A stretch of DNA of 64,000 nt. It comes from an uncultured Eubacteriales bacterium. Its GTDB lineage: Bacteria; Bacillota; Clostridia; Lachnospirales; Lachnospiraceae. This document shows, piece after piece, positions 11,905 through 30,230 of this stretch. How positions within the stretch are numbered: position 1 is the stretch's first letter; each line of letters begins with the position of its first letter. The position numbers and the translations under genes are program-made. The stretch lies in the NCBI GenBank assembly GCA_951800645.1, contig CATOIK010000001.1, forward strand, positions 186,001 through 250,000. The letters are read 5' to 3'. The notes beneath the pieces were generated by a model. The model was not told the DNA's origin and made no database searches. It worked only from the letters and a program-made list of their open reading frames with translations.

Positions 11905-11932
11905 TTGCATTTTGGAAAATATATGCTATGAT
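11905..11932 (+). promoter_or_regulatory. Candidate promoter for the YheO-like regulator
   Basis: TTGCAT-N16-TATGAT; -10 overlaps the over-extended ORF start, supporting a start at 12012. Confidence 0.45.
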
Positions 11933-12011
11933 GGACTTATCAAAAAAATTTTTAGGTAGCCTTGGCCAAGAATGTTACCTGAAAATTCTTTCGCGAAAGG
12001 ATGACATCATT

Positions 12012-12668
12012 ATGAGACAAACGCTTGATTATCTTACCCAGATTGCACACGGTGTTGCTGTTCACTTCGGTTCTTCCTGTGAGGTGGTTATCCACGACCT
12101 GACCAAAGAAAATGTAGAATCTTCTATATTGTACATTGAGAACGGTCATGTCAGCAACCGCCACAAGGGAGACGGTCCTTCCGGCATTGTGCTGAAGACA
12201 AAAACTCACGGTTCAAAAGCTTTGGAAGACCGGCTGGCTTACCTTACCAAGACTGCGGACGGACGGATTTTAAAATCCAGCACCATGTATATCCGGGGAG
12301 AAAACGATGAGATCCAGTACATTTTCTCCATCAATTACGACATTACCGGCTTAATCAGCATGAATGGGGCTTTAAAGTCTCTTATCGAGACAGCGCCCGC
12401 AGAAGGGAAACAGCCCAGCAAGATTACCCATAATGTCAATGACCTGTTGGACGAACTGATTGAACAGTCCGTTGCTTTGGTGGGAAAACCGGTGGCTCTC
12501 ATGACTAAGGACGAGAAGATTTCTGCAATCCAGTTTTTAAACGATTCCGGAGCGTTTCTGGTAACCAAATCCGGTGACAAAATCTCCTCCTACTTCGGCA
12601 TCTCCAAGTTTACGCTTTACAGCTACATTGATGCCGCCAAGCAGATGTCCGGCAATGAGCCATCCTAA
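12012..12668 (+). CDS. YheO/DauR-like PAS-HTH transcriptional regulator
   Basis: MRQTLDYLTQIAHGVAVHFGSSCEVVIHDL... and C-terminal HTH FGISKFTLYSYID; divergent from ssnA. Confidence 0.85.
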   Translation: MRQTLDYLTQIAHGVAVHFGSSCEVVIHDLTKENVESSILYIENGHVSNRHKGDGPSGIVLKTKTHGSKALEDRLAYLTKTADGRILKSSTMYIRGENDEIQYIFSINYDITGLISMNGALKSLIETAPAEGKQPSKITHNVNDLLDELIEQSVALVGKPVALMTKDEKISAIQFLNDSGAFLVTKSGDKISSYFGISKFTLYSYIDAAKQMSGNEPS

Positions 12669-12719
12669 GCAACCTGATGCTTTTAAATCAAACAAAAAGA
12701 ATTCCAGGAGGTTTTCAAC

Positions 12720-13925
12720 ATGAAAGCGATTGAATGGGCCGTCAACCAGATGCCCAAAACAGACGATCTTCAGCTGCCGGTTATGGCGCTGGATGAGGTA
12801 AAAAAGGCCCGCGCATTCCACGAGAGTTTTCCTCAGTACACTACTACTCCCCTTGCAAAGCTGGACCACATGGCTTCCTATTTAGGCCTGGCTCAGGTAT
12901 TTGTAAAGGATGAGTCTTACCGGTTCGGCTTAAATGCCTTCAAGGTACTGGGCGGCTCCTTTGCCATGGCTCGCTACATTGCCAAGGAAACAGGACGGGA
13001 TGTATCTGAGCTTCCCTACAATGTACTGACCTCAGATGAGCTGAGAGAAGAATTCGGTCAGGCTACCTTCTTTACCGCTACTGACGGAAACCATGGCCGC
13101 GGCGTTGCCTGGGCGGCTAACAAGCTGCGTCAGAAGGCTGTTGTACATATGCCGAAGGGTACAACCCAGACCCGTCTGTTAAACATTCAAAAGGAAGGGG
13201 CCAAGGTAGACATTACAGACATGAACTACGACGACTGCGTTCGTCTGGCTGCCAAGGAGGCTGCTGAAACTCCCAGAGGCGTTGTGGTACAGGATACTGC
13301 ATGGGACGGCTATGAGGAAATTCCGGCCTGGATCATGCAGGGCTACGGCACCATGGCTATGGAGGCTGACGAACAGCTTGCCGCTTACGGCTGCGACCGC
13401 CCCACTCATGTATTCATTCAGGCAGGCGTTGGTTCCTTAGCCGGCGCAGTTCAGGGCTACTTTGCAAACCGTTTCCCGGAGAATCCGCCGAAGGTGATTG
13501 TAGTTGAAGCTGATCTGGCAGCATGTCTCTACAAAGGTGCAAAAGTCGGCGACGGAAGCATCCAGATTGTAGACGGCGACATGCAGACCATCATGGCCGG
13601 CCTTGCCTGCGGCGAGCCAAACACCATCTCCTGGGACATCTTAAAGAACCATGTAGACACCTTTGTGGCTGCTCCTGACTGGGTTGCTGCCAAAGGAATG
13701 CGGATGCTGTCCGCTCCGTTCAAGGGAGATCCTCAGGTGGTTTCCGGAGAATCCGGGGCTGCTCCCTTCGGCGTACTGGCCTGCATCATGACTATGGACG
13801 AATACAAACCGCTCCGCCAGCATTTAGGTCTGGATGAGACCTCACGGGTACTGCTCTTCTCCACCGAGGGCGACACGGATCCGGAGCGCTACAAAAACAT
13901 TGTGTGGGAAGGTTTAGAGAAATAA
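12720..13925 (+). CDS. dpaL: Diaminopropionate ammonia-lyase
   Basis: PLP-type SYRFGLNAFKVLGG, TATDGNHGRGVAWAA; next to ygeY/ygeW. Confidence 0.94.
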   Translation: MKAIEWAVNQMPKTDDLQLPVMALDEVKKARAFHESFPQYTTTPLAKLDHMASYLGLAQVFVKDESYRFGLNAFKVLGGSFAMARYIAKETGRDVSELPYNVLTSDELREEFGQATFFTATDGNHGRGVAWAANKLRQKAVVHMPKGTTQTRLLNIQKEGAKVDITDMNYDDCVRLAAKEAAETPRGVVVQDTAWDGYEEIPAWIMQGYGTMAMEADEQLAAYGCDRPTHVFIQAGVGSLAGAVQGYFANRFPENPPKVIVVEADLAACLYKGAKVGDGSIQIVDGDMQTIMAGLACGEPNTISWDILKNHVDTFVAAPDWVAAKGMRMLSAPFKGDPQVVSGESGAAPFGVLACIMTMDEYKPLRQHLGLDETSRVLLFSTEGDTDPERYKNIVWEGLEK

Positions 13926-13967
13926 ATCAGAAACCAAATAAAAAATTGTAAAATGGAGGATTCTATC

Positions 13968-15284
13968 ATGAGCCTGGATTACGGCAAGATCAAAGAACTG
14001 GCACAGAGTTACGAAAAAGACATGACTAAATTCCTGCGGGAAATCGTTAAGAACCCAGGAGAAAGCTGCGATGAAAAGGCGCACATCGACCGTATCGCAG
14101 AGGAAATGAGAAAGCTTCAGTTTGACAAGGTTGAGATTGATCCCATGGGTAATGTATTAGGCTACATGGGAACCGGTAAGACCCTGATTGGCTTTGACGC
14201 TCACATCGACACCGTTGGTATCGGAAACATTGAAAACTGGGCATTTGATCCTTACGAGGGCTATGAAAACGACACCGAAATCGGCGGCCGCGGCGTATCT
14301 GACCAGTGCGGCGGTATTGTATCTGCTGTTTACGGCGCTAAGATTATGAAGGATCTGGGTCTGCTCTCCGACCAGTACACTGTTTTAGTTGTTGGTACGG
14401 TTCAGGAGGAGGACTGTGACGGTCTCTGCTGGCAGTACATCATCAACGAAGATAAGGTTCGTCCGGAGTTCGTTGTTTCCACTGAGCCGACAGACGGCGG
14501 TATCTACCGTGGACAGCGTGGCCGTATGGAAATCCGCATTGATGTTAAGGGCGTTTCCTGTCACGGTTCTGCACCGGAGCGTGGCGACAACGCTATCTAC
14601 AAAATGGCTGACATCCTGCAGGATGTACGGGCGCTGAACGAAAATGACGCTGCTGATTCCACCGAGATCAAAGGTTTGGTTAAGATGCTGGACGAGAAAT
14701 ACAATCCGGAGTGGAAGGAAGCAAACTTCTTAGGCCGCGGCACCGTTACTACCTCCCAGATCTTCTACACCTCTCCCAGCCGCTGTGCAGTAGCTGACTC
14801 CTGCGCAGTATCCTTAGACCGCCGCATGACTGCAGGCGAAACCTGGGAAAGCTGTCTGGATGAGATCCGCGACCTGCCCAGCGTAAAGAAATACGGCGAT
14901 GATGTAGTGGTTTCCATGTATAACTACGAGCGTCCGTCCTACACTGGTCTGGTTTACCCCATCGAGTGCTACTTCCCCACCTGGGTTATTCCGGAGGATC
15001 ACAAGGTAACCGCAGCTTTAGAGGAAGCTTATAAGAACTTATACGGCGAGGCCCGCATCGGCGCTGAGGAAACTCTGGCTATGAGAACTGCCCGCCCGCT
15101 GACTGACAAGTGGACCTTCTCCACCAACGGCGTATCCATTATGGGCCGCAACGGCATCCCCTGCATCGGCTTCGGACCGGGCGCAGAAGCTCAGGCACAC
15201 GCTCCCAACGAGAAAACCTGGAAACAGGATCTGGTAACCTGCGCAGCCGTATACGCAGCTCTTCCCACCGTTTACTGCAAGTAA
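13968..15284 (+). CDS. ygeY: YgeY family selenium metabolism-linked M20 hydrolase
   Basis: M20 motif [13 protein letters not shown]; family context; ATG at 13968 preceded by GGAGG. Confidence 0.92.
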
Positions 15285-15323
15285 ACCTTAACCGCCAACC
15301 TACATTTTTCCTACATATGTAAA

Positions 15324-15358
15324 CGCGAAAGCGGGCAGCTCCATTCTCTCGCTTTCGC
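15324..15358 (+). other. Intercistronic hairpin between ygeY and ygeW
   Basis: GCGAAAGCG ... CGCTTTCGC perfect 9-bp arms, no T-tract. Confidence 0.7.
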
Positions 15359-15422
15359 AGATTACCAGGCGCAAGCAATACCATCAATATAAACCATTTT
15401 ATTTTAACGGAGGATCTATTTC

Positions 15423-16619
15423 ATGGACAAAACTTTACAGGGCTACATTGACAAGCTGAACAAACTGAACTTCAAGGAAATGTACGAGGGCGACTTCTTC
15501 CTAACCTGGGAAAAGACTGACGATGAGTTAGAGGCAGTTTTCACTGTTGCTGACGCTCTGCGCTACATGAGAGAAAACAATATTTCCACCAAGGTATTTG
15601 AGAGTGGTCTGGGTATCTCCTTATTCCGTGACAACTCCACCAGAACCCGTTTCTCCTTCGCTTCTGCCTGCAACCTGTTAGGTCTGGAAGTTCAGGATTT
15701 AGACGAGGGCAAATCTCAGATCGCACACGGCGAGACTGTTCGTGAGACTGCTAACATGGTTTCCTTTATGGCTGATGTAATCGGCATCCGTGATGATATG
15801 TACATCGGCAAGGGCAACACTTACATGCACGAGTTCATGGATGCTGTTACCCAGGGCAACAAGGACGGCATCCTGGAGCAGAAGCCTACTCTGGTAAACT
15901 TACAGTGCGACATCGACCATCCCACTCAGGCTATGGCTGACATGCTGCACATCATCCACCACTTCGGCGGCGTTGAGAATCTGAAGGGCAAAAAACTGGC
16001 TATGACCTGGGCTTACTCTCCCTCCTACGGCAAGCCCCTGTCTGTTCCCCAGGGTATCATCGGTCTGATGACCCGCTTTGGTATGGATGTAGTTCTGGCT
16101 CATCCGGAAGGCTATGAGGTATTCCCGGAGGTTGAGAATGTAGCTTCCGAGAACGCTAAGAAGTCCGGCGGTTCCTTTAAAAAGACCAACAGCATGGCTG
16201 AGGCATTCAAAGACGCTGACATCGTTTACCCCAAGAGCTGGGCTCCTTTCGCTGCTATGGAGAAGCGTACCGAGCTGTACGGCAACGGCGATACCGAGGG
16301 CATCAAGGCTCTGGAGAAAGAACTGTTAGCTCAGAATGCAAACCACAAAGACTGGGCCTGCACCGAGGAAATGATGGCTACCACCAAGGACGGCAAGGCT
16401 TTATACATGCACTGCCTGCCGGCTGACATCACTGGTTTAAGCTGTAAGGAAGGCGAGGTTGACGCTTCCGTATTCGACCGCTACCGTGATCCGCTGTACA
16501 AAGAGGCCAGCTTCAAGCCGTACATCATCGCTGCTATGATCTTCTTAGCCAAGTTTGAAAATCCGGCTGAGATTCTGAAGAAACTGGAAGAGCGTGCTGT
16601 AGCTCGTAAATTCGACTAA
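15423..16619 (+). CDS. ygeW: Knotted carbamoyltransferase YgeW
   Basis: DNSTRTRFSFASACNLLG, MHCLPADI; context. Confidence 0.94.
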   Translation: MDKTLQGYIDKLNKLNFKEMYEGDFFLTWEKTDDELEAVFTVADALRYMRENNISTKVFESGLGISLFRDNSTRTRFSFASACNLLGLEVQDLDEGKSQIAHGETVRETANMVSFMADVIGIRDDMYIGKGNTYMHEFMDAVTQGNKDGILEQKPTLVNLQCDIDHPTQAMADMLHIIHHFGGVENLKGKKLAMTWAYSPSYGKPLSVPQGIIGLMTRFGMDVVLAHPEGYEVFPEVENVASENAKKSGGSFKKTNSMAEAFKDADIVYPKSWAPFAAMEKRTELYGNGDTEGIKALEKELLAQNANHKDWACTEEMMATTKDGKALYMHCLPADITGLSCKEGEVDASVFDRYRDPLYKEASFKPYIIAAMIFLAKFENPAEILKKLEERAVARKFD

Positions 16620-16639
16620 TTTAGACTGAACTCTTTCTT

Positions 16640-16668
16640 TCGGGCCGCTTCTTGGGGACGCGGCCCGA
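16640..16668 (+). other. Intercistronic hairpin between ygeW and carbamate kinase
   Basis: TCGGGCCGC-N11-GCGGCCCGA perfect 9-bp arms, no T-tract. Confidence 0.7.
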
Positions 16669-16708
16669 TCTGCGTCTTGGAATCATATAAAGGAGAAGGA
16701 AAAAACTT

Positions 16709-17653
16709 ATGAGCAAGAAAAAACGAATTGTTATTGCGCTGGGCGGCAACGCTCTGGGCAATACCCTTCCGGAGCAGATGGCTGCTGTAAAAATTACAGC
16801 TAAAGCCATTGTAGATCTGATCGAGGAAGGATGTGAGGTGGTTGTGGCTCACGGAAACGGCCCTCAGGTAGGCATGATCAACAATGCTATGGCCGCTCTC
16901 TCCAGAGAGAATCCGAAACAGCCCAACACTCCCCTCTCTGTCTGTGTAGCCATGAGCCAGGCTTACATCGGCTACGACCTGCAGAACGCTCTGCGGGAAG
17001 AACTGATCAACCGGGGAATTACCGATGTTCCGGTAGCAACCATGGTAACCCAGATTCGGGTAGACGCCGATGATCCGGCCTTTGCAAATCCGTCTAAACC
17101 CATCGGTCACTTTATGACCCAGGAGGAGGCAAAGCACGCAGAGGAAGCTTACGGCTATATCACCAAGGAAGACGCCGGACGGGGCTACCGCCGGGTAGTT
17201 GCTTCCCCGAAGCCGGCTGAGATCATTGAAATCGGTGCTATCCAGGCTTTGGTAAACGACGGACAGTTGGTTATTGCCTGCGGAGGCGGCGGAATTCCCG
17301 TTACCCTTCAGGGCAACCACTTAAAAGGCGCCAGCGCCGTTATTGACAAAGATTTTGCCAGCTGCCTGTTAGCAAAAGAGCTGGATGCAGACTTTTTGAT
17401 TATTTTGACTGCAGTAGAAAAAGTAGCAATCAACTTCGGTAAGCCGGAAGAAAAATGGCTGGATGATTTATCAATCGAGAATGCAAAACAGTATATTTCC
17501 GAAGGTCATTTCGCTCCTGGTTCCATGCTTCCGAAGGTAGAAGCCGCCGTCCAGTTTGCTGAGTCCAAACCGGGCCGTACGGCACTTATCACTCTGCTGG
17601 AGAAAGCCAAAGATGGAATCCTTGGTAAAACCGGCACACGAATCCATCAGTAA
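16709..17653 (+). CDS. arcC: Carbamate kinase
   Basis: IALGGNALGN, VVVAHGNGPQVG, GGGGIPV. Confidence 0.94.
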   Translation: MSKKKRIVIALGGNALGNTLPEQMAAVKITAKAIVDLIEEGCEVVVAHGNGPQVGMINNAMAALSRENPKQPNTPLSVCVAMSQAYIGYDLQNALREELINRGITDVPVATMVTQIRVDADDPAFANPSKPIGHFMTQEEAKHAEEAYGYITKEDAGRGYRRVVASPKPAEIIEIGAIQALVNDGQLVIACGGGGIPVTLQGNHLKGASAVIDKDFASCLLAKELDADFLIILTAVEKVAINFGKPEEKWLDDLSIENAKQYISEGHFAPGSMLPKVEAAVQFAESKPGRTALITLLEKAKDGILGKTGTRIHQ

Positions 17654-17671
17654 TTATCAAGGAGGACCATC

Positions 17672-19003
17672 ATGAGCACCAAGACATCCAACAAAGCATC
17701 TCTATTTGAGTTAGACGGCGTACCTTCCTTAGGACAGGCCGCCCCTCTCTCACTGCAGCATGTTGTCGCCATGATCGTCGGCTGTGTGACCCCTGCAATT
17801 ATTATTGCAGGGGTTGTCGGCCTGCCATCGGCAGACAGCGTTATTTTAATCCAGTCAGCGCTGATCGTAGCTGGCCTTTCCACCTTGCTGCAGCTTTTCC
17901 CCATCGGAAAAAAAGGCGGCATCCGCTTAGGCTCCAGCCTTCCTGTGATTATGGGCGTCAGCTTCGCTTACCTGCCCAGTATGCAGGCCATAGCCGGGGA
18001 TTTCGGCCTTCCGGCCATCTTTGGCGCCCAGTTAGTAGGCGGCGTTGTGGCTGTTTTTGTAGGTATCTTCATTAAGAAAATCCGCAGATACTTCCCGCCG
18101 TTGATTGCAGGTACGGTAGTATTTACCGTAGGCCTTTCCTTATACCCCACTGCTATCAACTACATGGCAGGCGGTACCTCCAGCCCCAACTACGGTTCCT
18201 GGCAGAACTGGCTGGTAGCCATCTTCACCCTGGTTATCGTTACCACACTGAACCATTTTGGCAAAGGCATTTTAAAGCTGGCTTCCATTCTGATTGGAAT
18301 TATTGCCGGTTACCTGTTCAGCCTGTGCTTTGGCATGGTGAATTTATCTGCTGTGGGAGAAGCCGGACTTTTCCAGGTTCCCTCTATTCTCCACTTTGGT
18401 ATTGAATTTGAGCCGTCTTCCTGCGTAGCTATCGGTATTTTATTTGCCATCAACTCCATTCAGGCTATCGGAGACTTTTCTGCTACTACTGCAGGCGGTA
18501 TGGACCGGGAGCCTACTGCAGATGAGCTGCAGGGCGGTATTTTAGGCTACGGCGTTACCAACATCTTAGGCTGTTTCTTAGGCGGTCTTCCCACCGCTAC
18601 CTTCAGCCAGAATGTAGGTATTGTTGTTACCACCAAGGTTGTAAACCGGGTTGTCTTTGGAGGCGCTGCTGGCATCATCCTGCTGGCCGGCCTGCTTCCC
18701 AAGTTCTCTGCTCTTTTAACCACCATTCCCCAGTGCGTGCTGGGCGGCGCAACGGTTTCCGTATTTGCCTCCATCGCCATGACCGGAATGAAGCTGGTTA
18801 TGACCGAGAATATGAACTACCGGAACACCTCCATTGTAGGTCTTGCAGCAGCTCTGGGCATGGGCGTCAGCCAGGCTTCTGCATCTTTAGCCAACTTCCC
18901 TGCATGGGTAACCACCATCTTCGGAAAATCCCCGGTGGTAATTGCAACCATCGTGGCAATTCTTCTGAATATTACGCTGCCGAAGGAGGAGAAAAAGAAC
19001 TAA
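17672..19003 (+). CDS. NCS2 family uracil/xanthine (urate-type) permease
   Basis: Multi-TM; LQHVVAMIVGCVTPAIIIAG, GDFSATTAGGMDREPT. Confidence 0.9.
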   Translation: MSTKTSNKASLFELDGVPSLGQAAPLSLQHVVAMIVGCVTPAIIIAGVVGLPSADSVILIQSALIVAGLSTLLQLFPIGKKGGIRLGSSLPVIMGVSFAYLPSMQAIAGDFGLPAIFGAQLVGGVVAVFVGIFIKKIRRYFPPLIAGTVVFTVGLSLYPTAINYMAGGTSSPNYGSWQNWLVAIFTLVIVTTLNHFGKGILKLASILIGIIAGYLFSLCFGMVNLSAVGEAGLFQVPSILHFGIEFEPSSCVAIGILFAINSIQAIGDFSATTAGGMDREPTADELQGGILGYGVTNILGCFLGGLPTATFSQNVGIVVTTKVVNRVVFGGAAGIILLAGLLPKFSALLTTIPQCVLGGATVSVFASIAMTGMKLVMTENMNYRNTSIVGLAAALGMGVSQASASLANFPAWVTTIFGKSPVVIATIVAILLNITLPKEEKKN

Positions 19004-19128: not shown

Positions 19129-19980
19129 CTACACGGTTACGGAATCGTATAACTGCCGCATCTTCCGTCCGCAAATTTCTGCATTTTCCGGCGTAGTATT
19201 TTCCAAAGTTCCAAAGATAAACGGTTTTTCCTGTTTGATAAACTTCATAATGGGAGTGAAATCCATCTCTCCGGTCCCGGCGCCTACGGCTTTCAGCCCG
19301 TGGCCTTCCTGCACCCGGATAAAGTCTTTAAAATGGACCATGGCGATGTCCGATCCTAAAAGCTCTATTGCCTCTGCAAATACCTCGTCCCGATGGTCTA
19401 CATTATCCAAATCCAGCAAATTCACCGGATCAAACAGAATCTGCAGATTGTGGGAGCCAATCTCGTCCAGCACGATCCTGGCCCTCTTGGCGTTCCACAC
19501 AATGTGACGGGCTACCGGCTCAATGGCCAGAATCACGCCGTACTGCTCTGCACAGCGCACAATCGGCTTTAAACGGCGGATAAAAGCGGACAGCGCCTTT
19601 TCTGTGCGGCATTCCGGGCAGAACTTGTACTCCGGATTTGGTGCACCGGTTTCCGTGCCTACCATTCCGCACCCCAACAGAGAAGCAAACCGGATATGGG
19701 CGTAATACATTTCCGTAGACTGACGGATTACCTCCTCATCCGGATGAGCCAGATTCAGATAATTGCCCAAAACTGCTATATCCATTCCGTTTTTCTCAAA
19801 CAGATGGCGCAGATACAGAGCATAGCCCGGAGTCAGTGCAGAGGGCGTACAGGGGTACTCCTTCATGGCTTTGCTGAGGGCTAAATGGGCACAGGTATAT
19901 CCCTTTTTCTTTACTTCCGGAAGCAGTTCCTCCATGGGAAGGCTTTCTGCATCGTGAAGTCTTAAGCCTAACTGCAGCAT
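19129..19980 (-). CDS. Sugar phosphate isomerase/epimerase (AP endonuclease-2 TIM-barrel)
   Basis: GMVGTETGAPNPEYK, ILAIEPVARHIV, MVHFKDF. Confidence 0.8.
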   Translation of the reverse strand: MLQLGLRLHDAESLPMEELLPEVKKKGYTCAHLALSKAMKEYPCTPSALTPGYALYLRHLFEKNGMDIAVLGNYLNLAHPDEEVIRQSTEMYYAHIRFASLLGCGMVGTETGAPNPEYKFCPECRTEKALSAFIRRLKPIVRCAEQYGVILAIEPVARHIVWNAKRARIVLDEIGSHNLQILFDPVNLLDLDNVDHRDEVFAEAIELLGSDIAMVHFKDFIRVQEGHGLKAVGAGTGEMDFTPIMKFIKQEKPFIFGTLENTTPENAEICGRKMRQLYDSVTV

Positions 19981-19981
19981 T

Positions 19982-21109
19982 TTACGCCTCCTTCTTTTCG
20001 CAGCCTGCGTTCTGTCTGCGAATCTGCTCGCTGACTGCCATCATGCAGGCTCCGGTTCCGTGCTGGTTATCCCGCATCTGGGCTTCGCTGACATAATAGC
20101 GTGGAGTACCATCTCTATCCTTCCGGTTATGGGGATCCGGTCCTGCTCCCAGACCTGCGCTGGCGCAGATACCGTCTAAATGCCATCCGTCATCTTCTCT
20201 TTTCAGATAGGTATCCCGGACGCCGTCCAGCACCTGGCTTCCCAACTCTCCGTAGGATTCCTCCAGCATACCAAGCCGCGCTCCCTTCATCAGGGCATAG
20301 GCTGCCATAGCACTTCCGGAGGTTTCAAGATAGTTGCCAGGATAATCTGGCTGGTCCGCTACCTGATAGAACATTTTGGTTTCCGAATCCTGATATTTTA
20401 AAAGGCCGTCCACACCATTCTTAAGAAGTTCCAACAGCTCTCCTGACCGGGGCGTAACCTCTTTTGCGTACTCATAAACATCTGCCAGAGCCATCAAAAA
20501 CCAGCCCTCTGCCCGCAGCCACACACTGAGGCTTCTTCCGGTTTCCTTATCTGCCCAGTCAGCCTTGCGGCTTACATCACAGCCGTGGATGTAAAGGTTC
20601 CGTTTCTCATCCCAGAGAAGCCTGTGAGCATTCTGGAACTGATCCAGAATGTCGTCCCACTTATCTTCCCCGGTCTCTGTCAGCGTTCTGGCATAGAAAG
20701 GCATAGCCATATAAAGGCCGTCCAGCCACACCTGGTTGGGATAGATGTCCTTATGCCAGAAGTTTCCGGTGGCAGTTCTGGGATACTCCTTTAAGAAATC
20801 ATAAGCCTTTTCCACTGCTGCCTTACAGCGGTCATCTCCTGTCAAATCCCGCAGGATACGCAGAGATTTTCCAAAGCTTACCTTGTCAATGTTTTTCTCG
20901 CCTTCCTTCCAGTTGGCAACAGAACCGTCCTCCTTCATCAGCCAGCTGCTGTTATCCGTAATGTAACGGTTCCAGGATTGGTCCCCTGTAGCCTCTGCCA
21001 GGCAGGCGGCGCCGATCACACAGAGATCATCCTTATAATTCCACGGCTTATTTTTTAAAAACTGCGGAAACACAGTCTCCAGATACTGGGCAAAATACTC
21101 CAGCCACAT
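19982..21109 (-). CDS. GH88/GH105 unsaturated rhamnogalacturonyl hydrolase
   Basis: NQVWLDGLYMAMPFYA, WLRAEGWFLMAL; start moved to the ATG at 21109, outside the GH28 gene. Confidence 0.88.
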   Translation of the reverse strand: MWLEYFAQYLETVFPQFLKNKPWNYKDDLCVIGAACLAEATGDQSWNRYITDNSSWLMKEDGSVANWKEGEKNIDKVSFGKSLRILRDLTGDDRCKAAVEKAYDFLKEYPRTATGNFWHKDIYPNQVWLDGLYMAMPFYARTLTETGEDKWDDILDQFQNAHRLLWDEKRNLYIHGCDVSRKADWADKETGRSLSVWLRAEGWFLMALADVYEYAKEVTPRSGELLELLKNGVDGLLKYQDSETKMFYQVADQPDYPGNYLETSGSAMAAYALMKGARLGMLEESYGELGSQVLDGVRDTYLKREDDGWHLDGICASAGLGAGPDPHNRKDRDGTPRYYVSEAQMRDNQHGTGACMMAVSEQIRRQNAGCEKKEA

Positions 21110-21146
21110 ACACTCGTTCCCCTTTCTATATTCTGAAATCAATTCC

Positions 21147-23222
21147 TTAAATTCCTGCAAAATCTGCCACCCGATCCAGGATACGCTCTGCTTCTTCCAC
21201 GGTGACCGGCCGCTCCGGATAGAAATATTGTTTTTCGTCCAGCTCCAGAAATCCAAAATAAAGGGCTCTTGCCACATTGGTGCCGTAGTTGTTGCTGACC
21301 TGGCCTGCATCTCTGCAAACCGGCATGGTACTGGAAGCGTTCCGATAATTGACGCCGCAGGCCTGCATGGCTACGGTAGCCATTTCCTGACGGCTTACCA
21401 GTCCCTCAGGATAAAAACCCGCCGCCGAATCCAGGGCTAAAAACCCCTGCTTCACAGCGGCCTGTAAGACGCCTCCGGAAAGCTCTGCTTTTGATTCTTC
21501 CAAAAGAGGCTGCATCATCCGTGCCAGCCGTTCTCTGGTTACAGCAGTTTCACCCGCCAGCATATCCTCCTCTGCCAGCATCCCCCGGCAAATCAGACGC
21601 CGCTGTATCTGCGTCCGTCCGTCTGTCTCAGAAGCTTCGGATGTCTCTGCAAGCGGCTGCAGCACCCGGTAGCTGCGGCTCATCTCCCGGTTTTCATCCC
21701 GGTCACAGGCCGTTACCCGGATAAACCTGGCAGTTTCCGGCACAGTACAAGTTTCCCCTTCTCCTGCCTGGCTCCAGTCTGTTCCATTTTCCGAAACTTC
21801 CCAGGCAAACTGGCAGTTCTCAGTTCCGCCGCAGTATTCCAGAGCGGCAGACACTGTTTTTTTCGGCTCCGGCACAGCTAAAATCCGCACCTTTCCGGGT
21901 CGCGGGAAGTTTTTTCCATTAATCTGCACCTGCTCCATCACCGGATCTTCCCAGTTCATGCTGCGCATGGGACAGGTTACTCCGTCAATCGTTATATTCC
22001 GAAGAATCAGCCCGGTAATGGGCACTTCCTCAAAGGCCTCCAGAAAGACGCCGTAATCTCCTCCGTGGGCCGTAATATCCTCTATAGTAATGTTTTTAAA
22101 GACCGGCAGATAGTCTCCGTTTCTGCCATCCTCATAAAGCATGGTTCCGTGAACTGCAGCTCCGTGAACATGATCCATCACACTGTCTGCCAGAATCACA
22201 TCTTCTACCTGACCGCCTCGTCTGGCGTTTGTCTTCAGCCGCAGGGCATAGGTAAGATTGGGGCTGCTGAACCGATTGTTCTGGGCCAGTACATACCGGA
22301 TTCCTCCACTCATCTCACTTCCTAAGGCTATGCCGCCGTGGCCGTCTGCAAATTCATTGTTCTCGATCAGCACATACTCACAAGACTTATTGGCTTCTCT
22401 GCCGTCCCGGTCCCGGCCGGATTTTAAGCTGATACAGTCGTCTCCTGTATCAAACCGGCAGTTCTTAATCCACACGCCGCTGCAGCTTTCCGGGTCACAG
22501 CCGTCGTTATTGGCTCCGTGACTGGACATGGTTACTCCATCCACAGTCAGGCTTTCGCACATAACCGGATTTAACTGCCACATCGGACTGTTTTTTAAGG
22601 TAAATCCCTGAAACAGAACCCGTTTGCAGCGGATAGGCTGAACAAAGTTGGGGCGGAGATAGTGACCCGGCCCAAACACCCGCTCTGAAACCGGAACCCC
22701 ATCCTGATTCATGTTCCGCAAAATTTTCCGGTCCTCAAGCTGCAGGTCCGGTCTGTTTTCCGACCAGGCATTCTCCACCTGATGATGCCAGTCCCACCAG
22801 TGGTCTTTATCGGCTCCTCCGTCTAAGGTTCCGGGGCCGGTCACTGCAATGTCCTGGGCATCGCAGGCGTAAAGTAAGGGGCTGTAATTGCAGCAGGGCG
22901 TAGCTTCCCAGTGGGAAAATACCACCGGATAATGAAGCTCCGGCTCTTTGCTTACAAAGGAAAGCATCGTATCTCGGCTTTCCAGATGAAGCTCTACCCC
23001 GCTCTTTAACCGCAGCGCTCCGGTTCGGTACTTTCCTGCCGGAACCACTACCCTGCCGCCGCCTGCTGCACTGACCTTGTCTATGGCTCGCTGCAGCGCT
23101 TCCGTCTGGATTTCCTGCCCATCAGGCACGGCTCCAAAATCCAGAACCGAATACAGCCGGTCCGGAATCTGAGGCCGATTTATTCTATCTAAAATCATAC
23201 TGCGAAGCTGTCTCTTATCCAT
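21147..23222 (-). CDS. GH28 polygalacturonase-like enzyme with C-terminal SLH-like segment
   Basis: NNDGCDPESCSGVWIKNCRFDTGDDCISLKSGRD, DGHGGIALGSE, ALRLKTNARRGG; C-terminus GFYPEGLVSRQEMATVAMQA and YFYPERPVTVEEAERIL. Confidence 0.9.
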   Translation of the reverse strand: MDKRQLRSMILDRINRPQIPDRLYSVLDFGAVPDGQEIQTEALQRAIDKVSAAGGGRVVVPAGKYRTGALRLKSGVELHLESRDTMLSFVSKEPELHYPVVFSHWEATPCCNYSPLLYACDAQDIAVTGPGTLDGGADKDHWWDWHHQVENAWSENRPDLQLEDRKILRNMNQDGVPVSERVFGPGHYLRPNFVQPIRCKRVLFQGFTLKNSPMWQLNPVMCESLTVDGVTMSSHGANNDGCDPESCSGVWIKNCRFDTGDDCISLKSGRDRDGREANKSCEYVLIENNEFADGHGGIALGSEMSGGIRYVLAQNNRFSSPNLTYALRLKTNARRGGQVEDVILADSVMDHVHGAAVHGTMLYEDGRNGDYLPVFKNITIEDITAHGGDYGVFLEAFEEVPITGLILRNITIDGVTCPMRSMNWEDPVMEQVQINGKNFPRPGKVRILAVPEPKKTVSAALEYCGGTENCQFAWEVSENGTDWSQAGEGETCTVPETARFIRVTACDRDENREMSRSYRVLQPLAETSEASETDGRTQIQRRLICRGMLAEEDMLAGETAVTRERLARMMQPLLEESKAELSGGVLQAAVKQGFLALDSAAGFYPEGLVSRQEMATVAMQACGVNYRNASSTMPVCRDAGQVSNNYGTNVARALYFGFLELDEKQYFYPERPVTVEEAERILDRVADFAGI

Positions 23223-23244: not shown

Positions 23245-24339
23245 CTAACTTAATCTTATCAGGGCGTCCAGACGCTCCTTTAAATGTTCATCGTGCCACT
23301 GATGTCCGCCCTCAAAAATCTCATGCATCAGGCAGGGTTCTGCCTCGTAAAGACGGTACGCTGCCCGGAGAATCTCTACCTGTTCAAAGACATTTGCAAT
23401 TCCTCTTTCTCCGTTTAACCGGTCTTCCCGGCAGGACTGAATCAGCAGCGGCCTTGGGGCAATCAGACTGGCAATATCCCCCATATCCAGATGCTCCCAC
23501 AGATGGGGAACATAGTTGCAGGAACAGTTTCTGTTCATGGTAAGCAGGGAATCCTTAAAGCCGTAGAAATAGCCGCTGATCACCGCCAGCTTCACCCGCT
23601 CATCCAGAGCCGAAAGCCACATGGTCTGCATGCCGCCGCCGGAAAATCCCAGACAGCTTATCTGCTCTGTATTCCACTCTCCCCGCAGCTCCAGATAGTC
23701 TATGGTCCTCATCAGATCCCAGGTCAGCATACCTGCCACCGGAATGCCAAGAGGCTCTCCCATATGGGCCAGCCAGTAGCAGTCCCCTTTTAATCCCAGA
23801 ACCGGATCCGACGCATCGGAAAGCAGTTCTCTCCGCTCTCCGAAGCCTCTGCAGTCCGGGCAGACTGCAACATAACCCAGGCGGGCCAACTGAAAGCCGT
23901 AATCATAGTGATACTGGGCTATCCTCTCTCCTACCAATTCATATTCTGCAAGCCCGGCTACAGAATATTTTCCGGCTCCGTTATGGCCCGGAGGGCATAA
24001 AAAGGGCCGGGCTGCGGTGCCTGCATCCGCCGGAATCAGCAGATAGATGGGCATCCACACATCCGGCTCTACCTGAATCCGTATATGTTCTCGTCTGATT
24101 CCCTCTGGCAGCACGGTGACCTCCTCTGTCACCGGCTGCAGGGGCGCCTGTTCCAGTTTGTCAAGTCCCAACAAATTCCAGAGCAGGGCTTTTGTGCGCT
24201 TTCGCCACACCTCAAATTCCATCCGGGTCTGCCCGGTAAAAAAATCTTTCCGTCCATACCGTTCAAATTTACGCTGCATGGACTTCAGGCTTCCATAACA
24301 GGACTTAATCTCAGGTAAAACTCCCTTTAACTCAGTCAT
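23245..24339 (-). CDS. Alpha/beta hydrolase (acetyl xylan esterase / dienelactone hydrolase type)
   Basis: CLGFSGGGMQTMWLSALDERVKLAVISGYF; start overlaps the end of tctA. Confidence 0.8.
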   Translation of the reverse strand: MTELKGVLPEIKSCYGSLKSMQRKFERYGRKDFFTGQTRMEFEVWRKRTKALLWNLLGLDKLEQAPLQPVTEEVTVLPEGIRREHIRIQVEPDVWMPIYLLIPADAGTAARPFLCPPGHNGAGKYSVAGLAEYELVGERIAQYHYDYGFQLARLGYVAVCPDCRGFGERRELLSDASDPVLGLKGDCYWLAHMGEPLGIPVAGMLTWDLMRTIDYLELRGEWNTEQISCLGFSGGGMQTMWLSALDERVKLAVISGYFYGFKDSLLTMNRNCSCNYVPHLWEHLDMGDIASLIAPRPLLIQSCREDRLNGERGIANVFEQVEILRAAYRLYEAEPCLMHEIFEGGHQWHDEHLKERLDALIRLS

Positions 24340-25855
24340 CGTTTACTTCCGTCTGTACCGGAGCTGCGGCTGCTTCCGCTTTTTTCTTTCTCCGCTCAGA
24401 GATGATCGGCCAAACCACACAGAACATGGCAACTGCCAGCAACGCTGCAGAAATCGGTCTGGTGAAGAATTCCTTGTAACTGCCGTGGGCATAGCTGATG
24501 CCCTGACGGAAATAACGCTCCAGCTTGCTGGACAGGATGAAAGCCAGTACCAGCGGAGAGGTGGGCAGTCCGGACATGCTCATAAAGATTGCCAACAGGC
24601 AGAGCGCCAGCATCACATAAATATTGAACATGGTATTGGAGATGCCGTAGCCGCCAATGTAGCAGATTACCAGGATTACCGTATACAGATAGTGATACGG
24701 AACCTTCAGAATGTATGGGAACCACCGTTTGGTTACAATCTGGATGATATAGGTTATAATTGCAGATACCAGTACACAGGCAAAAATCAGCATAGCCAGA
24801 TCCGGCTGCTCTGTCATAAACAGAGGACCTGCCTGAAGACCGTGAATAGTCAGACCTGCAATCAGCATCGCCGTGATACCGTCTCCTGGGATACCCAGCG
24901 CCATCATGGGGATCAGGGCGCCGCCTAAAGAAGCATTGTTTGCTGTCTCAGAAGCCCACACACCGGCCGGATTTCCTTTGCCGAAGCTTTCCGGGTCCTT
25001 GCTGATGCTCTTGGCATAGCCGTAAGCTACCATGTTGGAGATACCGGAGCCCATACCGGGCAGGAAGCCAATCCATAAACCGGATACAAATGCAAACAGA
25101 ATGGTCTTGATGTTCTCAATAATATCCTTAAATCCAACGCCCAGGCCCTTCATGGAAACCATGTCGGCCTCCGGCATCTTTGCCTCGCCTTTTGCAGAAT
25201 CACGGATAATCTGACACATAGCAAACATACCAAGCATCTGAGCTACAGTGCTGATACCTGCGGTCAGATAGACATTGCCAAAAGTAAACCGGGTTGCGCC
25301 GTTGATAGGATCCATTCCGATACATCCCATTAACAGACCGATGCCAGCAGCCATAATGCCTTTAAAGATATTTCCCTTAGACAGGGACGCTACCAGGGTA
25401 ATGGCACAAAAGCACAAAGAGAAGTACTCCCAGGGTCCTAAATGAAGTGCGAACTCTGCAATAACCGGAGAAAGCAGGGTAGCCAGAATAACGGAACCAA
25501 CCGTACCGATAAAAGACGCAGTCATACCGATTCCCAGGGCCTTTCCTGCCTGACCGTTCTTGGTCATGGGGAAACCGTCAAAGCAAGTAGCGATCGCAGA
25601 GGAAGAACCGGGGATACCGATTAACACTGCGGAAATAAAGGTTCCGGAAACGCCGCCAATCCAGATTGCTAAAAGCAGCACGAAAGATGTCTCTGTAGAC
25701 AGGCCGAAGGTTACCGGCAGAAGCAATGCAATACCCAGCGTAGCAGACAGGCCTGGGATGGCGCCAAAGACAATGCCCAGAGAAACCATGGCTACGATCA
25801 ACAGCAGGTTGATGGGCTCTAAACACACCATCAATGCACTTATGTATTCACTCAT
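24332..25855 (-). CDS. Tripartite tricarboxylate transporter permease, TctA family
   Basis: AIPGLSATLGIALLLP, GIPGSSSAIATCFDGFPMTKNGQAGKALG. Confidence 0.93.
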   Translation of the reverse strand: MSEYISALMVCLEPINLLLIVAMVSLGIVFGAIPGLSATLGIALLLPVTFGLSTETSFVLLLAIWIGGVSGTFISAVLIGIPGSSSAIATCFDGFPMTKNGQAGKALGIGMTASFIGTVGSVILATLLSPVIAEFALHLGPWEYFSLCFCAITLVASLSKGNIFKGIMAAGIGLLMGCIGMDPINGATRFTFGNVYLTAGISTVAQMLGMFAMCQIIRDSAKGEAKMPEADMVSMKGLGVGFKDIIENIKTILFAFVSGLWIGFLPGMGSGISNMVAYGYAKSISKDPESFGKGNPAGVWASETANNASLGGALIPMMALGIPGDGITAMLIAGLTIHGLQAGPLFMTEQPDLAMLIFACVLVSAIITYIIQIVTKRWFPYILKVPYHYLYTVILVICYIGGYGISNTMFNIYVMLALCLLAIFMSMSGLPTSPLVLAFILSSKLERYFRQGISYAHGSYKEFFTRPISAALLAVAMFCVVWPIISERRKKKAEAAAAPVQTEVNDD

Positions 25856-25870: not shown

Positions 25871-26338
25871 TTACTCAAACAGGATGCCCATCGGCAGCTT
25901 CACCTGGAAGCCAAACACGAACATGGCGTAAAGTCCTGCAGTTACTAACAGTGCAATAATAATGGACGGAACCAGCTTTACCTCACTGTTTCCCTTTAAG
26001 TCATAGATAAATGCCACAGTCGCAAACGGGGTGGTAATCAGAAAGCCTAACCAAGTCATGGCAAAGGCATAAATTACCAGCATCAGATAGCTTTTGCTGA
26101 TTTTTAAAATACCGCCCTTGGGAAAGTACGGTTTTTCCTCAATATGGCTTTCCTTCAAGCCCTTGATAATCAGTGCGATGGAGCTCAATGCAATGAGGGC
26201 GATTGCCACATAGGGAAACAGTCTGGGTCCCGGCTCTAACAGTTTGGCCGGCTGTTTGATGGACTGGCCTGCAAATAAGAAGAATGCACATCCCAAAAGA
26301 CCAACAATTCCGGTCTTGGTATCTCTACGCATTTTCAT
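25871..26338 (-). CDS. Tripartite tricarboxylate transporter, TctB family
   Basis: 155 aa with several TM segments, between TctA and TctC genes. Confidence 0.85.
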   Translation of the reverse strand: MKMRRDTKTGIVGLLGCAFFLFAGQSIKQPAKLLEPGPRLFPYVAIALIALSSIALIIKGLKESHIEEKPYFPKGGILKISKSYLMLVIYAFAMTWLGFLITTPFATVAFIYDLKGNSEVKLVPSIIIALLVTAGLYAMFVFGFQVKLPMGILFE

Positions 26339-26426: not shown

Positions 26427-27494
26427 TTACTCCTGAACATACATGTCAAGATCTTTTGCAATCTGAACGAACTGAGCGTACTCGCCGTCGCGAAGCTCTT
26501 TGGATTCTTCCAGGTCATGCCAGCCGGGAATGTTTCCGATGGATGCGATACCTGCGTTTACAGTCTCATCTTCCACAACAGCCTTCATTGCTGCGTTCAT
26601 CTCAGCTACCATGGTCTCGTCCATACCAGCCGGTCCTAACAGATAGTGAAAAATAGAAATGGTGCATTCCTCAAAGCCCTGCTCCTGCAGAGTTTTGTAG
26701 TTGTCCGGCAGTGCTTCCGGATACTTGGAGATGGTGGTTCCATCGGAAGAAACAGTGCCGATTACTTTCAGCTTGCCGGCCTTCTCGTACTCTAATGCAT
26801 TGCCTACGCCTACTACACCGATGTCGATGAAGCCGCCGGCTAAGTTGGTCAGACGGTCAGACTCAGAAGCACACTCTACAGAATTTAACTCAATACCGTT
26901 TTTTTCGGTAAGCATACCGAAAATGAAGGTGTTGGAACCTGCTGCCGGCATACCGGCGTTTAACTCGCCCGGATGAGCCTTTGCATACTCTACAAATCCT
27001 GCGAAATCATCGTAAGGAGCGTCTGCCGGAACAGCCAGAGTAGAAAAGCCGTTGTCCTGCAGGCAAGCAATCAGGGTAAAGTCATCGATCGGGCTTACCT
27101 CTGCATTGCCGGTGATGTACTGAATGTTCAGAGCGGAGGTTGCTACGGTCAGAGTAGTTCCGTCCGGCTTGGAAGAAGCAACCGTCTGATGTCCTACCGT
27201 ATTGCTGTCGTAGTTGGTTACGGTGGTCTTTAAGCCGTACAGACGGTTTAAGCCCTCGCTGTAGTAGCGGATGCCCAAATCAGAACCGCCGCCTGCTTTA
27301 CCCGGAACAACCAGGGTAATGGTTTCGCCCTTCGGGAAACCGATGCTTCCTGCTTCTGTAGCTGCTGCCTCGCCGCCTTCTGCCGCTGCCTCAGTCTTGA
27401 CTGCTTCTGTAGCTGCTGCATCTGCGCCGCCGCATGCTGTTACGCTCAACATGGCTGCTGCCAGAACACCTGATAAAAAGATTCTTTTCTTCAT
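26427..27494 (-). CDS. Tripartite tricarboxylate transporter substrate-binding lipoprotein, TctC family
   Basis: Lipobox LSVTACGG, VVPGKAGGGSDL; start moved to MKKRIFLSG at 27494. Confidence 0.9.
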   Translation of the reverse strand: MKKRIFLSGVLAAAMLSVTACGGADAAATEAVKTEAAAEGGEAAATEAGSIGFPKGETITLVVPGKAGGGSDLGIRYYSEGLNRLYGLKTTVTNYDSNTVGHQTVASSKPDGTTLTVATSALNIQYITGNAEVSPIDDFTLIACLQDNGFSTLAVPADAPYDDFAGFVEYAKAHPGELNAGMPAAGSNTFIFGMLTEKNGIELNSVECASESDRLTNLAGGFIDIGVVGVGNALEYEKAGKLKVIGTVSSDGTTISKYPEALPDNYKTLQEQGFEECTISIFHYLLGPAGMDETMVAEMNAAMKAVVEDETVNAGIASIGNIPGWHDLEESKELRDGEYAQFVQIAKDLDMYVQE

Positions 27495-27718
27495 AACTCT
27501 TTTCTCCTTATTTTTTATTTCAGGGCAGAGGACTCCCTCCCCCTGTTTCTTGACTATTTCTGACACATTTTGTAGAAAAAGCAGTTTTTATCCCGTTTCC
27601 TCTGTTTTTTCTTTCCTCTGTATCCTTACAGTGCCATTATAACTTCTATATATTTTTTTTACAAATCTCATTTACTCATATTTCTCATAACATTTTAGTT
27701 ATAGATATTCGTTTCATA

Positions 27719-27746
27719 TTGACACTTTTTGGAAATGAACTATGAT
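27719..27746 (+). promoter_or_regulatory. Candidate promoter for the tandem LysR gene
   Basis: TTGACA-N16-TATGAT. Confidence 0.6.
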
Positions 27747-27820: not shown

Positions 27821-29743
27821 ATGACTACCAAACAGCTTTACTATCTGGTAACCATAGCAGATTTGGGAAGCTTATCCGGCGCAGCCCAGGTGCTGGGCGT
27901 CTCTCAGCCGGCCCTCAGCAAATTTCTCAGCGAGTACGAAGATTCCCTTGGCTTCCTCTTATTTTTAAGATACCGCAGACAACTGCTTCCTACAGCAGTA
28001 GGCCGTTATGTCATCACCTGCGCCCAGAAGATTTTAGACGAGCAGACCAGAATGCTGCAGAGCATCCGGGCAGTTACCGATACAAACCATACCTTAATCC
28101 GGCTGTCTACCGCCCCTAACCGAGGCGCCATCATTTACAGCCGAATCTACAACTCCTTTTCCCGCCGCTATCCGGACATCTCCCTGTCTCTGACGGAGCT
28201 TTACGCCAGCGAACAGCCCGGCGCCATCTCCCACGGACAAATTGACCTGGCCATCGGCTCCGGGATGGTTTCTGACAAGGTAACAGACCTGCCCTTTGCC
28301 CAGGAGGAACTTTTGGTTTCTCTCCCTGCCTCCCATCCTATGGCTTCCCAGAAAAGCATCCGGCTGGCAGATTTAAAGGACACACCCTTTGTTCTTCAGG
28401 GGCCCCGCCACAGTATCCGGATTCTGGCAGAAAAGCTGTTTGAGGAAGCAGGCTTCAGTCCGGTGGTTACCTTTGAATCCAACGATGTTATCCTGGTAGA
28501 CTCTATGCTCCACCAGGCGGTAGGCGCCGGCCTGGTGTCCCAGGCCCATGTATTCCCCTGTGAGGAGCTGGTTTACCGCCCCTTAAATCCGCCGGTATAT
28601 CAGATTCTTCACATCCGCTACCCTCTTGGACACACCTTAACGGAGCCAGAGCGGTATCTGGCCGGTCTTCTGATCCGGGAACGGCTGTCAGACCCCCGCT
28701 ATCACGCCATTCCCTGTTCGGAGGCTGAGGAGCTTTTGCAATTTGCAGACTCTGCATCAGATGCAGAAGAAACCAGTGTATCCACCCCGGCTCAGTTAGC
28801 CATAACTCCGCGGACTGTTCACAATACAGCTCCCCAGATAAATTTAAACACCGACCTTCTCCGCTATCTCATTGCCATTGTAGATGAAAAAAGCCTGAGC
28901 AAGGCTGCAGAGCGGTTCTATCTGCCCCAGCCGGCCCTCTCCCGCCATCTGCGGAACGCAGAGACCATGCTGTGCACCCAGCTGTTTACCCGAATCCACA
29001 ACCGGCTGCAGCCTACCAATGCAGGAAAGGTATTTGTCAACTTTGCCCGGAACATGCTGCAGATAGATGCAGAGATGCATCAGCGGGTTCGGGACTACCG
29101 CCAGGGCCACGGAAACCATATCCAGATTCAGTGTGATCCGGCTGCAGCCTCCATAATCCGGGGACAGGTAAACAACGCCTTCTGCGCCCTGCACCCGGAC
29201 ATCAGCTTATCCATCACAGAAAGCGGCCGGGAGGAAACCCAGGAAGCCCTGTTAAACGCCTCTGCAGACATCGGCATCTATTTCTCCTGCCAGGAGGAAC
29301 ACTCCATTTTAGACTGTCGGCTTCTGGCAGAAACCCAGCTGGTTTACTGCGCCAGCTTAGGAGAAGTTCTGCCGGAAGCCAAAGCTCTGCCGCTGCAGAA
29401 GATCCTTTCGCCGCCCCGCCTGATGCTGGCGCCAGAAGGAAGCGCCCTCCGCACAGAACAAGACCGGCTTTTTAACCTGATTACAGAACGGCCTGCAGAG
29501 ACAGCATGCCAGTCCACCCAGGACATTCTCCATCTTCTGGCTGCCTGCGGCGCCGCCTCCACCATTCTGCCGGAACACAGTGTTCCGCTGGAAGCAAAGC
29601 TGCGGTGCCGTCCCTTTACAGTCCCCCAGTACTACTATCTGCTGCTGGTAATCCACCCAGGCCGGACGCTCCCCCCTGCCTTTCAGGATCTTTTCCGGCT
29701 GCTTTACGATGGGCTGGAAACCTGGTTTACCCGAAGCCGGTAA
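27821..29743 (+). CDS. Tandem (double) LysR family transcriptional regulator
   Basis: Two LysR HTH modules in one ORF: MTTKQLYYLVTIADLGSLSGAAQVLGVSQPALSKFL and NTDLLRYLIAIVDEKSLSKAAERFYLPQPALSRHL, each followed by a substrate-binding-like region. Confidence 0.92.
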   Translation: MTTKQLYYLVTIADLGSLSGAAQVLGVSQPALSKFLSEYEDSLGFLLFLRYRRQLLPTAVGRYVITCAQKILDEQTRMLQSIRAVTDTNHTLIRLSTAPNRGAIIYSRIYNSFSRRYPDISLSLTELYASEQPGAISHGQIDLAIGSGMVSDKVTDLPFAQEELLVSLPASHPMASQKSIRLADLKDTPFVLQGPRHSIRILAEKLFEEAGFSPVVTFESNDVILVDSMLHQAVGAGLVSQAHVFPCEELVYRPLNPPVYQILHIRYPLGHTLTEPERYLAGLLIRERLSDPRYHAIPCSEAEELLQFADSASDAEETSVSTPAQLAITPRTVHNTAPQINLNTDLLRYLIAIVDEKSLSKAAERFYLPQPALSRHLRNAETMLCTQLFTRIHNRLQPTNAGKVFVNFARNMLQIDAEMHQRVRDYRQGHGNHIQIQCDPAAASIIRGQVNNAFCALHPDISLSITESGREETQEALLNASADIGIYFSCQEEHSILDCRLLAETQLVYCASLGEVLPEAKALPLQKILSPPRLMLAPEGSALRTEQDRLFNLITERPAETACQSTQDILHLLAACGAASTILPEHSVPLEAKLRCRPFTVPQYYYLLLVIHPGRTLPPAFQDLFRLLYDGLETWFTRSR

Positions 29744-29834
29744 ACCGTCATTTGGATTTGCTTATTATTTATGTATAAAATTGTCTTCTTCCGGCACAAT
29801 AATAGGACACATATTCATTATGGAGGTAACAGCC

Positions 29835-30230
29835 ATGAAACATCCTGTTTTTCTTACAGATAAATCCAGAAGTATCTTATTAGAGGTGTTGGAAGGTGTC
29901 CCGGATGCTGCCCTGCCGGACTCCTGCCGTCCCTTTCAAATTCTGGAGATTATCACATCCGGGGACAGCTCAGAAAAGCATCTGCCGCAGATTAAAGCAG
30001 AGGGCTGCCATGTAACGGTAGAGGTAGGTGCCCTTCACCATCCCATGAGCGATGACCACCGCATCAGTTGGGTCTGTTTAGAAACCCAGGCAGGAGCCTT
30101 TATGCGAGTGCCCTTAAGCCCATCCTGCCACCCGGAGGCCCACTTTACCTTAGAACCAGGAGATACTCCAAAAGCTGCCTATGCCCTGTGTAATCTGCAT
30201 GGTCTGTGGAAAGCAGAATGGAAAAAATAA
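29835..30230 (+). CDS. Superoxide reductase / desulfoferrodoxin-like iron protein
   Basis: EKHLPQI, VEVGALHHPMSDDHRISWV, ALCNLHGLWKAEWKK: the 4-His/1-Cys site pattern of SOR. Confidence 0.85.
   Translation: MKHPVFLTDKSRSILLEVLEGVPDAALPDSCRPFQILEIITSGDSSEKHLPQIKAEGCHVTVEVGALHHPMSDDHRISWVCLETQAGAFMRVPLSPSCHPEAHFTLEPGDTPKAAYALCNLHGLWKAEWKK

Follow-up and report, generated by a model that had tools for sequence, protein, structure and literature searches.

The window, that is, the whole stretch of 64,000 nucleotides analyzed here (positions 186,001 to 250,000 of contig CATOIK010000001.1, from an uncultured Lachnospiraceae bacterium), carries on its plus strand a fused regulator of 640 amino acids (27821-29743), whose ATG start lies behind a ribosome-binding site and whose reading frame has no internal stop. 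The protein, assigned by Pfam and by its orthologues, contains two HTH_1 domains (PF00126; whole-protein E 3.4e-33) and two LysR_substrate domains (PF03466; E 1.6e-44), both well above the curated cut-offs and arranged in the order HTH-effector-HTH-effector. Unit A consists of a winged HTH with its linker helix (residues 1-85; 27821-28075; PF00126, with helices in the AlphaFold2 model) and an effector-binding domain (residues 90-296; 28088-28708; PF03466 at residues 92-276). Unit B consists of a second winged HTH with its linker helix (residues 342-428; 28844-29104; PF00126 at residues 345-403) and a fast-evolving effector-binding domain that holds the second PF03466 stretch (residues 432-638; 29114-29734). 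The domain search therefore bears out the claim of the initial annotation that two complete LysR units share this ORF. The linker that it placed around residues 300-330 also exists, but it extends over about residues 297-341 (28709-28843) as a hypervariable tether, in which one of 45 columns is invariant and the AlphaFold2 pLDDT falls below 50 at residues 314-339.

Each half separately matched full-length LysR models of NCBIfam, and both were far under the curated cut-offs of the named equivalogs CynR, CidR, GltC and AlsR (half A against CidR gave 116.6 bits for a cut-off of 415). With regard to the features of LysR-type transcriptional regulators (LTTRs), both the N-terminal HTH_1 winged HTH and the C-terminal LysR_substrate effector domain were found, and the norm of one unit of about 300 residues per chain, which is usual and not strictly defining, does not hold for this protein of 640 residues and two units. 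Among the HTH_1 matches of the source genome it is the sole double-LysR ORF. Directly downstream and on the same strand, a small desulfoferrodoxin-domain protein is encoded (29820-30230).

The fusion was found as a single ORF with both units in ten assemblies including the source (the window, L031, L032, L034, L035, L036, L049, L050, L051 and L066). The full-length orthologues thus occupy nine other genomes of at least two genera, among them [Clostridium] clostridioforme AGR2157 (L049), Clostridiales bacterium 1_7_47FAA (L050), a Lachnospiraceae MAG (L051) and a genome from a different genus of the same family (G157, locus L066). Synonymous changes greatly exceeded non-synonymous changes in all four domains, and between close orthologue pairs dN/dS was roughly 0.03-0.07 for both domains of A, 0.02-0.08 for the winged helix of B and 0.2-0.27 for its effector domain, low values that indicate that all four domains are being kept. 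The conservation of the single ORF across other genomes rules out a missed stop or an assembly artefact and, together with the synonymous excess, shows that the fusion did not persist by chance. Its spread is narrow: an A-type match at E ≤ 1e-40 was obtained in 8 of 397 sampled genomes of the family, and no fusion was found outside the Lachnospiraceae in a class sample of 391 genomes, with three candidates scored per genome.

The divergent operon and its predicted operator

The genes divergent from the fused regulator lie on the minus strand and begin with a tctCBA set, formed by the solute-binding protein TctC (26427-27494; PF03401; start inferred from the ribosome-binding site and orthologues), the small membrane subunit TctB (25871-26338; PF07331) and the large membrane subunit TctA (24332-25855; PF01970). 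They are followed by an alpha/beta hydrolase (23245-24339; Abhydrolase_7, with a weak glucuronyl-esterase-like match), a GH28 polygalacturonase/rhamnogalacturonase-like protein (21147-23222; PF00295) and a GH88/GH105-type unsaturated glucuronyl/rhamnogalacturonyl hydrolase (19982-21109; PF07470), all of them conserved, and by a xylose-isomerase-like TIM barrel (19129-19980; PF01261) that is conserved in L066. The mechanically called GH88 ORF (19982-21310) overlaps the GH28 gene and its likely start is near 21109. Beyond these genes, the region 11928-19003 encodes a YheO-like PAS/HTH regulator and, further on, a xanthine/uracil-type permease.

According to its enzyme content, the operon is predicted to serve the uptake and breakdown of pectin or rhamnogalacturonan, the transported substrate being part of the same prediction. 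The TctCBA-hydrolase-GH28-GH88 operon is kept, divergent from the fused gene, in most fusion loci; L051 has an ABC transporter in place of the tct genes, next to the same GH28 and GH88 genes, and L034 has a rearranged neighbourhood around the fusion. The divergent genes of an unfused sister pair (L068) and of a truncated fusion (L067) include an enolase-superfamily protein (MR_MLE_C by Pfam in L068), as well as a GarR-like reductase and a DapA-like aldolase, both judged by eye from sequence, and these genes point to sugar-acid metabolism as the common theme. Six other unfused pairs (L040, L041, L043, L045, L046 and L069) face a tctCBA set or a TctC gene. L037, the second sister pair, lacks both sugar-acid neighbours and the operator described below. 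Tripartite tricarboxylate transporter (TTT) loci that include a LysR regulator resemble the present one in their divergent regulator adjoining tctCBA. The present locus differs from them in coupling the transporter to pectin-type glycosidases and in having a double LysR as its regulator.

The aligned intergenic regions of nine loci share one strongly conserved block, TTCATANCANTTTAGTTATAG, which falls at 27684-27704 in the window, where this phylogenetic footprint gives the predicted operator CTCATAACATTTTAGTTATAG. Read on the minus strand, the block is a LysR-type imperfect inverted repeat, ATAAC-N6-GNTAT (ATAAC-N6-GTTAT in the window), whose flanks are asymmetric; the extended LysR consensus has been given as CTATA-n9-TATAG (PMC5002191). 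The predicted operator is present in every fusion locus, with one mismatch in the truncated L067, and is weaker upstream of the unfused sister pair L054/L068. Searches with the pattern at up to one mismatch found no second copy elsewhere in the window or in the genome, and this single match rules out a wider regulon in the source genome.

The spacing between the operator and the predicted tctC promoter is also conserved. The -10 element of this promoter (TATAAT on the minus strand, complement ATTATA; 27636-27641) is 50 bp, once 51 bp, from the operator in nine of nine tct-linked loci, and a likely -35 element (TTGTAA; 27659-27664, minus strand) is separated from it by a 17-bp spacer. The centre of the operator is at about -65 from the predicted tctC start, the transcription start itself being inferred. 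A divergent target gene and, at 27684-27704, an imperfect inverted-repeat site near -65, both usual for LTTRs, are thus present, and the fusion shares the divergent target operon and the operator at about -65 with single-unit LTTRs such as CynR, BenM, CcmR, CbnR and OxyR. On the other side of the operator, a promoter of the fused gene was predicted from the sequence (TTGACA-N16-TATGAT; 27719-27746, plus strand), and because it lies just beyond the operator the fused gene likely controls itself.

A weaker second element, CATTTACTCATA (27669-27680), with partly conserved columns, lies 22 bp from the matching part of the operator and near the tctC -35, where it could tentatively be an activation site. 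In the LysR family, tetramers are built as dimers of dimers that occupy two sites, and this arrangement, the presence of the second element and the flexibility of a tether of about 45 residues would all suit a tetramer in which two fused chains place A-A on the main operator and B-B on the second site near -35, in a fixed 2:2 assembly with no A.B winged-helix dimer. However, conservation is far weaker at the second element than at the operator, even though the DNA-binding domains of A and B are conserved to about the same degree. We consider such tethered A-A and B-B dimers unlikely, and at the same time a serious rival to the A.B pairing proposed below.

Unfused gene pairs and the origin of the fusion

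The relatives searched hold many adjacent LysR gene pairs on the same strand, always in the order A then B. In a tree that included unrelated LysR proteins, the A halves of the fusions grouped with the first genes of the pairs in one clade (SH-aLRT 99.9), and the B halves with the second genes in another (SH-aLRT 99.2). A local tandem duplication of one LysR gene is ruled out by these separate clades, each with its unfused relatives. Furthermore, the A halves of the fusions make up a single clade, and so do their B halves, so that one origin of the fusion is the simplest explanation. The branching of A and B is mirrored, with L037 and L054 placed beside the fusion and with the same further groups on both sides (L038, L039, L042 and L057; L040, L041, L043, L044, L046 and L056; L045 and L060). 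A and B distances were correlated with r = 0.914 overall and 0.954 in the unfused pairs, values as high being reached in none of 5000 permutations. Among the unfused A genes examined, that of L071 has no adjoining B gene and that of L073 has a B gene of just 96 amino acids. According to these comparisons, the unfused A and B genes of other Lachnospiraceae form an adjacent, co-inherited pair, and their products probably work together.

The two genes overlap by 4 nt in L037 and L054, the unfused pairs nearest to the fusion, and at L038 (4950-6839) two abutting, in-frame LysR genes are separated by a single TGA just ahead of the second ATG, a natural near-fusion or a possible case of read-through. 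The overlapping or abutting genes, together with the two-clade tree and the mirrored branching, indicate, at the level of sequence comparison, that the fusion is the joined (Rosetta-stone) form of an old two-gene LysR unit. The pairs of L037, L054, L040, L041, L046, L056 and others resemble the fusion in their A/B subfamilies, gene order and strand, and often in being divergent from tctCBA or sugar-acid genes; they differ from it in being separate proteins, whereas in the fusion a hypervariable tether replaces the overlapping stop/start. The 4-nt overlaps also make fusion mutationally easy, and the L038 genes are one TGA away from it, so that an intergenic stop could have been lost incidentally, without functional consequence, leaving the halves independent or one of them vestigial. 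Yet one fusion has been kept in several species of at least two genera with an intact B DNA-binding domain, operator and operon, which makes an incidental event very improbable.

Unequal sensor domains and a proposed heteromeric LysR regulator

The two units are under unequal constraint in their sensors. Among the ten full fusions, the invariant positions amount to 53% in the A and 47% in the B DNA-binding domain, and to 63% in the A effector domain against 22% in that of B, and invariance of the strand-1 pocket loop drops from 93% in A to 14% in B. Additionally, three lineages have lost the B effector domain or carry an interruption in it, with the DNA-binding part of B retained. In G090, which belongs to a third genus, the fusion (L067:8435-9766) ends after the second winged helix and comprises A and the B winged helix and linker helix only, with the operator retained; in G080 the separate 96-aa B gene (L073:7463-7753) has this same extent of B; and in G001 one stop falls within the second effector domain of the fusion orthologue. 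From these cases, the B effector domain seems to be the part that the protein can most easily do without; the cases are few, and may reflect decay or draft-assembly error. The single orthologue with such an in-frame stop, at L033:5418-7388, comes from a draft that is 80% complete, where an error is possible.

The B sensor is nonetheless predicted to fold. Modelled by AlphaFold2 with 26 relatives, the B half reached a pLDDT of 91.5 and matched full-length LTTR structures in Foldseek, whereas the full-length model, built from 11 rows, was weak (66.3, pTM 0.51); it shows no A.B interface and, at this low overall confidence, gives no reliable packing of A and B. The poor region of the 11-row model, residues 489-606, is attributable to the shallow alignment, since the 26-row B half was modelled well, and on this ground a loss of the fold of the second domain was rejected.

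The initial annotation had also suggested that the two diverged effector domains could integrate two ligands, which would mean that each senses a different small molecule and that the output needs both. The LysR fold predicted for both effector domains and the purifying selection on both, with dN/dS of about 0.2-0.27 in that of B, lend this idea weak support, as does a nearly invariant B loop, S-x-LR-x-EQ (S541, L543-R544 and E546-Q547), a sign that the effector domain of B may still have a part in ligand sensing. However, the low invariance of the B effector domain and of its pocket loop relative to A, and the loss or interruption of this domain in three lineages, one of them with the operator retained, argue against it. 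We therefore regard two-ligand integration as improbable and as a lesser rival than the tethered A-A and B-B dimers.

The reading that we prefer, and hold to be reasonably probable, is a permanently tethered A.B heteromeric LysR activator, with A as the sensor of a uronate-type ligand and B mainly as the source of a second DNA-binding domain. The winged helices of units A (residues 1-296) and B (residues 342-640) would pair through their linker helices within one chain to give a permanent A.B heterodimer, and two fused chains would form a pseudo-tetramer, the usual LysR state. The A.B dimer would occupy the imperfect inverted repeat (27684-27704), whose centre is some 65 bp upstream of the predicted operon start and which lies just upstream of the promoter of the fused gene. 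Binding in A of a ligand, most likely a uronate-type compound derived from pectin or rhamnogalacturonan, would then activate the tctCBA-hydrolase-GH28-GH88 operon, the regulator's own gene probably being controlled too. In such a mechanism B would act mainly as a DNA-binding domain and dimerization helix, with a sensor that is folded and under weaker constraint. The fused LysR would thus probably be a mixed pair that controls the uptake of pectin-type plant sugars.

The proposal of the initial annotation that a covalent dimer could fix heterodimer geometry gains good, indirect support from the adjacent, co-inherited A and B genes and their Rosetta-stone fusion, and the asymmetric, imperfect inverted-repeat operator kept in all fusion loci also counts as indirect support for it. 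LysR sites are often imperfect, so the asymmetry of the operator is no proof of a heterodimer. The unfused pair, the operator and the pectin operon did not figure in that annotation. More broadly, the Lachnospiraceae may carry an obligate heteromeric class of LysR regulators in which A is the sensor and B a dedicated DNA-binding and dimerization partner, sometimes reduced to a winged helix alone, with the window holding the fused form; we put this forward tentatively, at somewhat below an even chance.

Few kinds of bacterial transcription factor are as abundant as the LysR regulators, which are treated as homo-oligomers, the usual LTTR being a homotetramer, a dimer of dimers, of identical chains of about 300 residues with ligand-dependent activation. 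Each half of the fusion resembles single-unit LTTRs (CynR, BenM, CcmR, CbnR and OxyR) in its N-terminal winged HTH, linker helix and two-lobed effector domain, and the fusion differs from them in carrying two different, non-interchangeable units per chain. LysR regulators as such are well known, and the fusion departs from their norm of one unit per chain. PnpR and PnpM are two different LysR regulators of one nitrophenol pathway (PMC5603801); they are like the A.B pair in that two different LysR proteins act in the same pathway, and unlike the fusion in being separate proteins. No prior report of a fused, double or obligately heteromeric LysR was found in the open-access literature searched. 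The conserved fusion, the ancestral pair, the shared operator and the unequal sensors would make heteromeric LysR regulation directly testable in one polypeptide. The fusion also offers a ready single-chain scaffold on which the sensing and the DNA-binding unit could be told apart, and the fused LysR is a candidate regulator of pectin use by gut Lachnospiraceae.

Lastly, other LysR genes were also seen in clusters. The source genome has, outside the window, three LysR genes in a row that belong to a different LysR clade (G000:C9:39232-41873; L086, L087 and L090), and further tandem LysR genes occur in L038, so that LysR clustering seems to be common in the genus.
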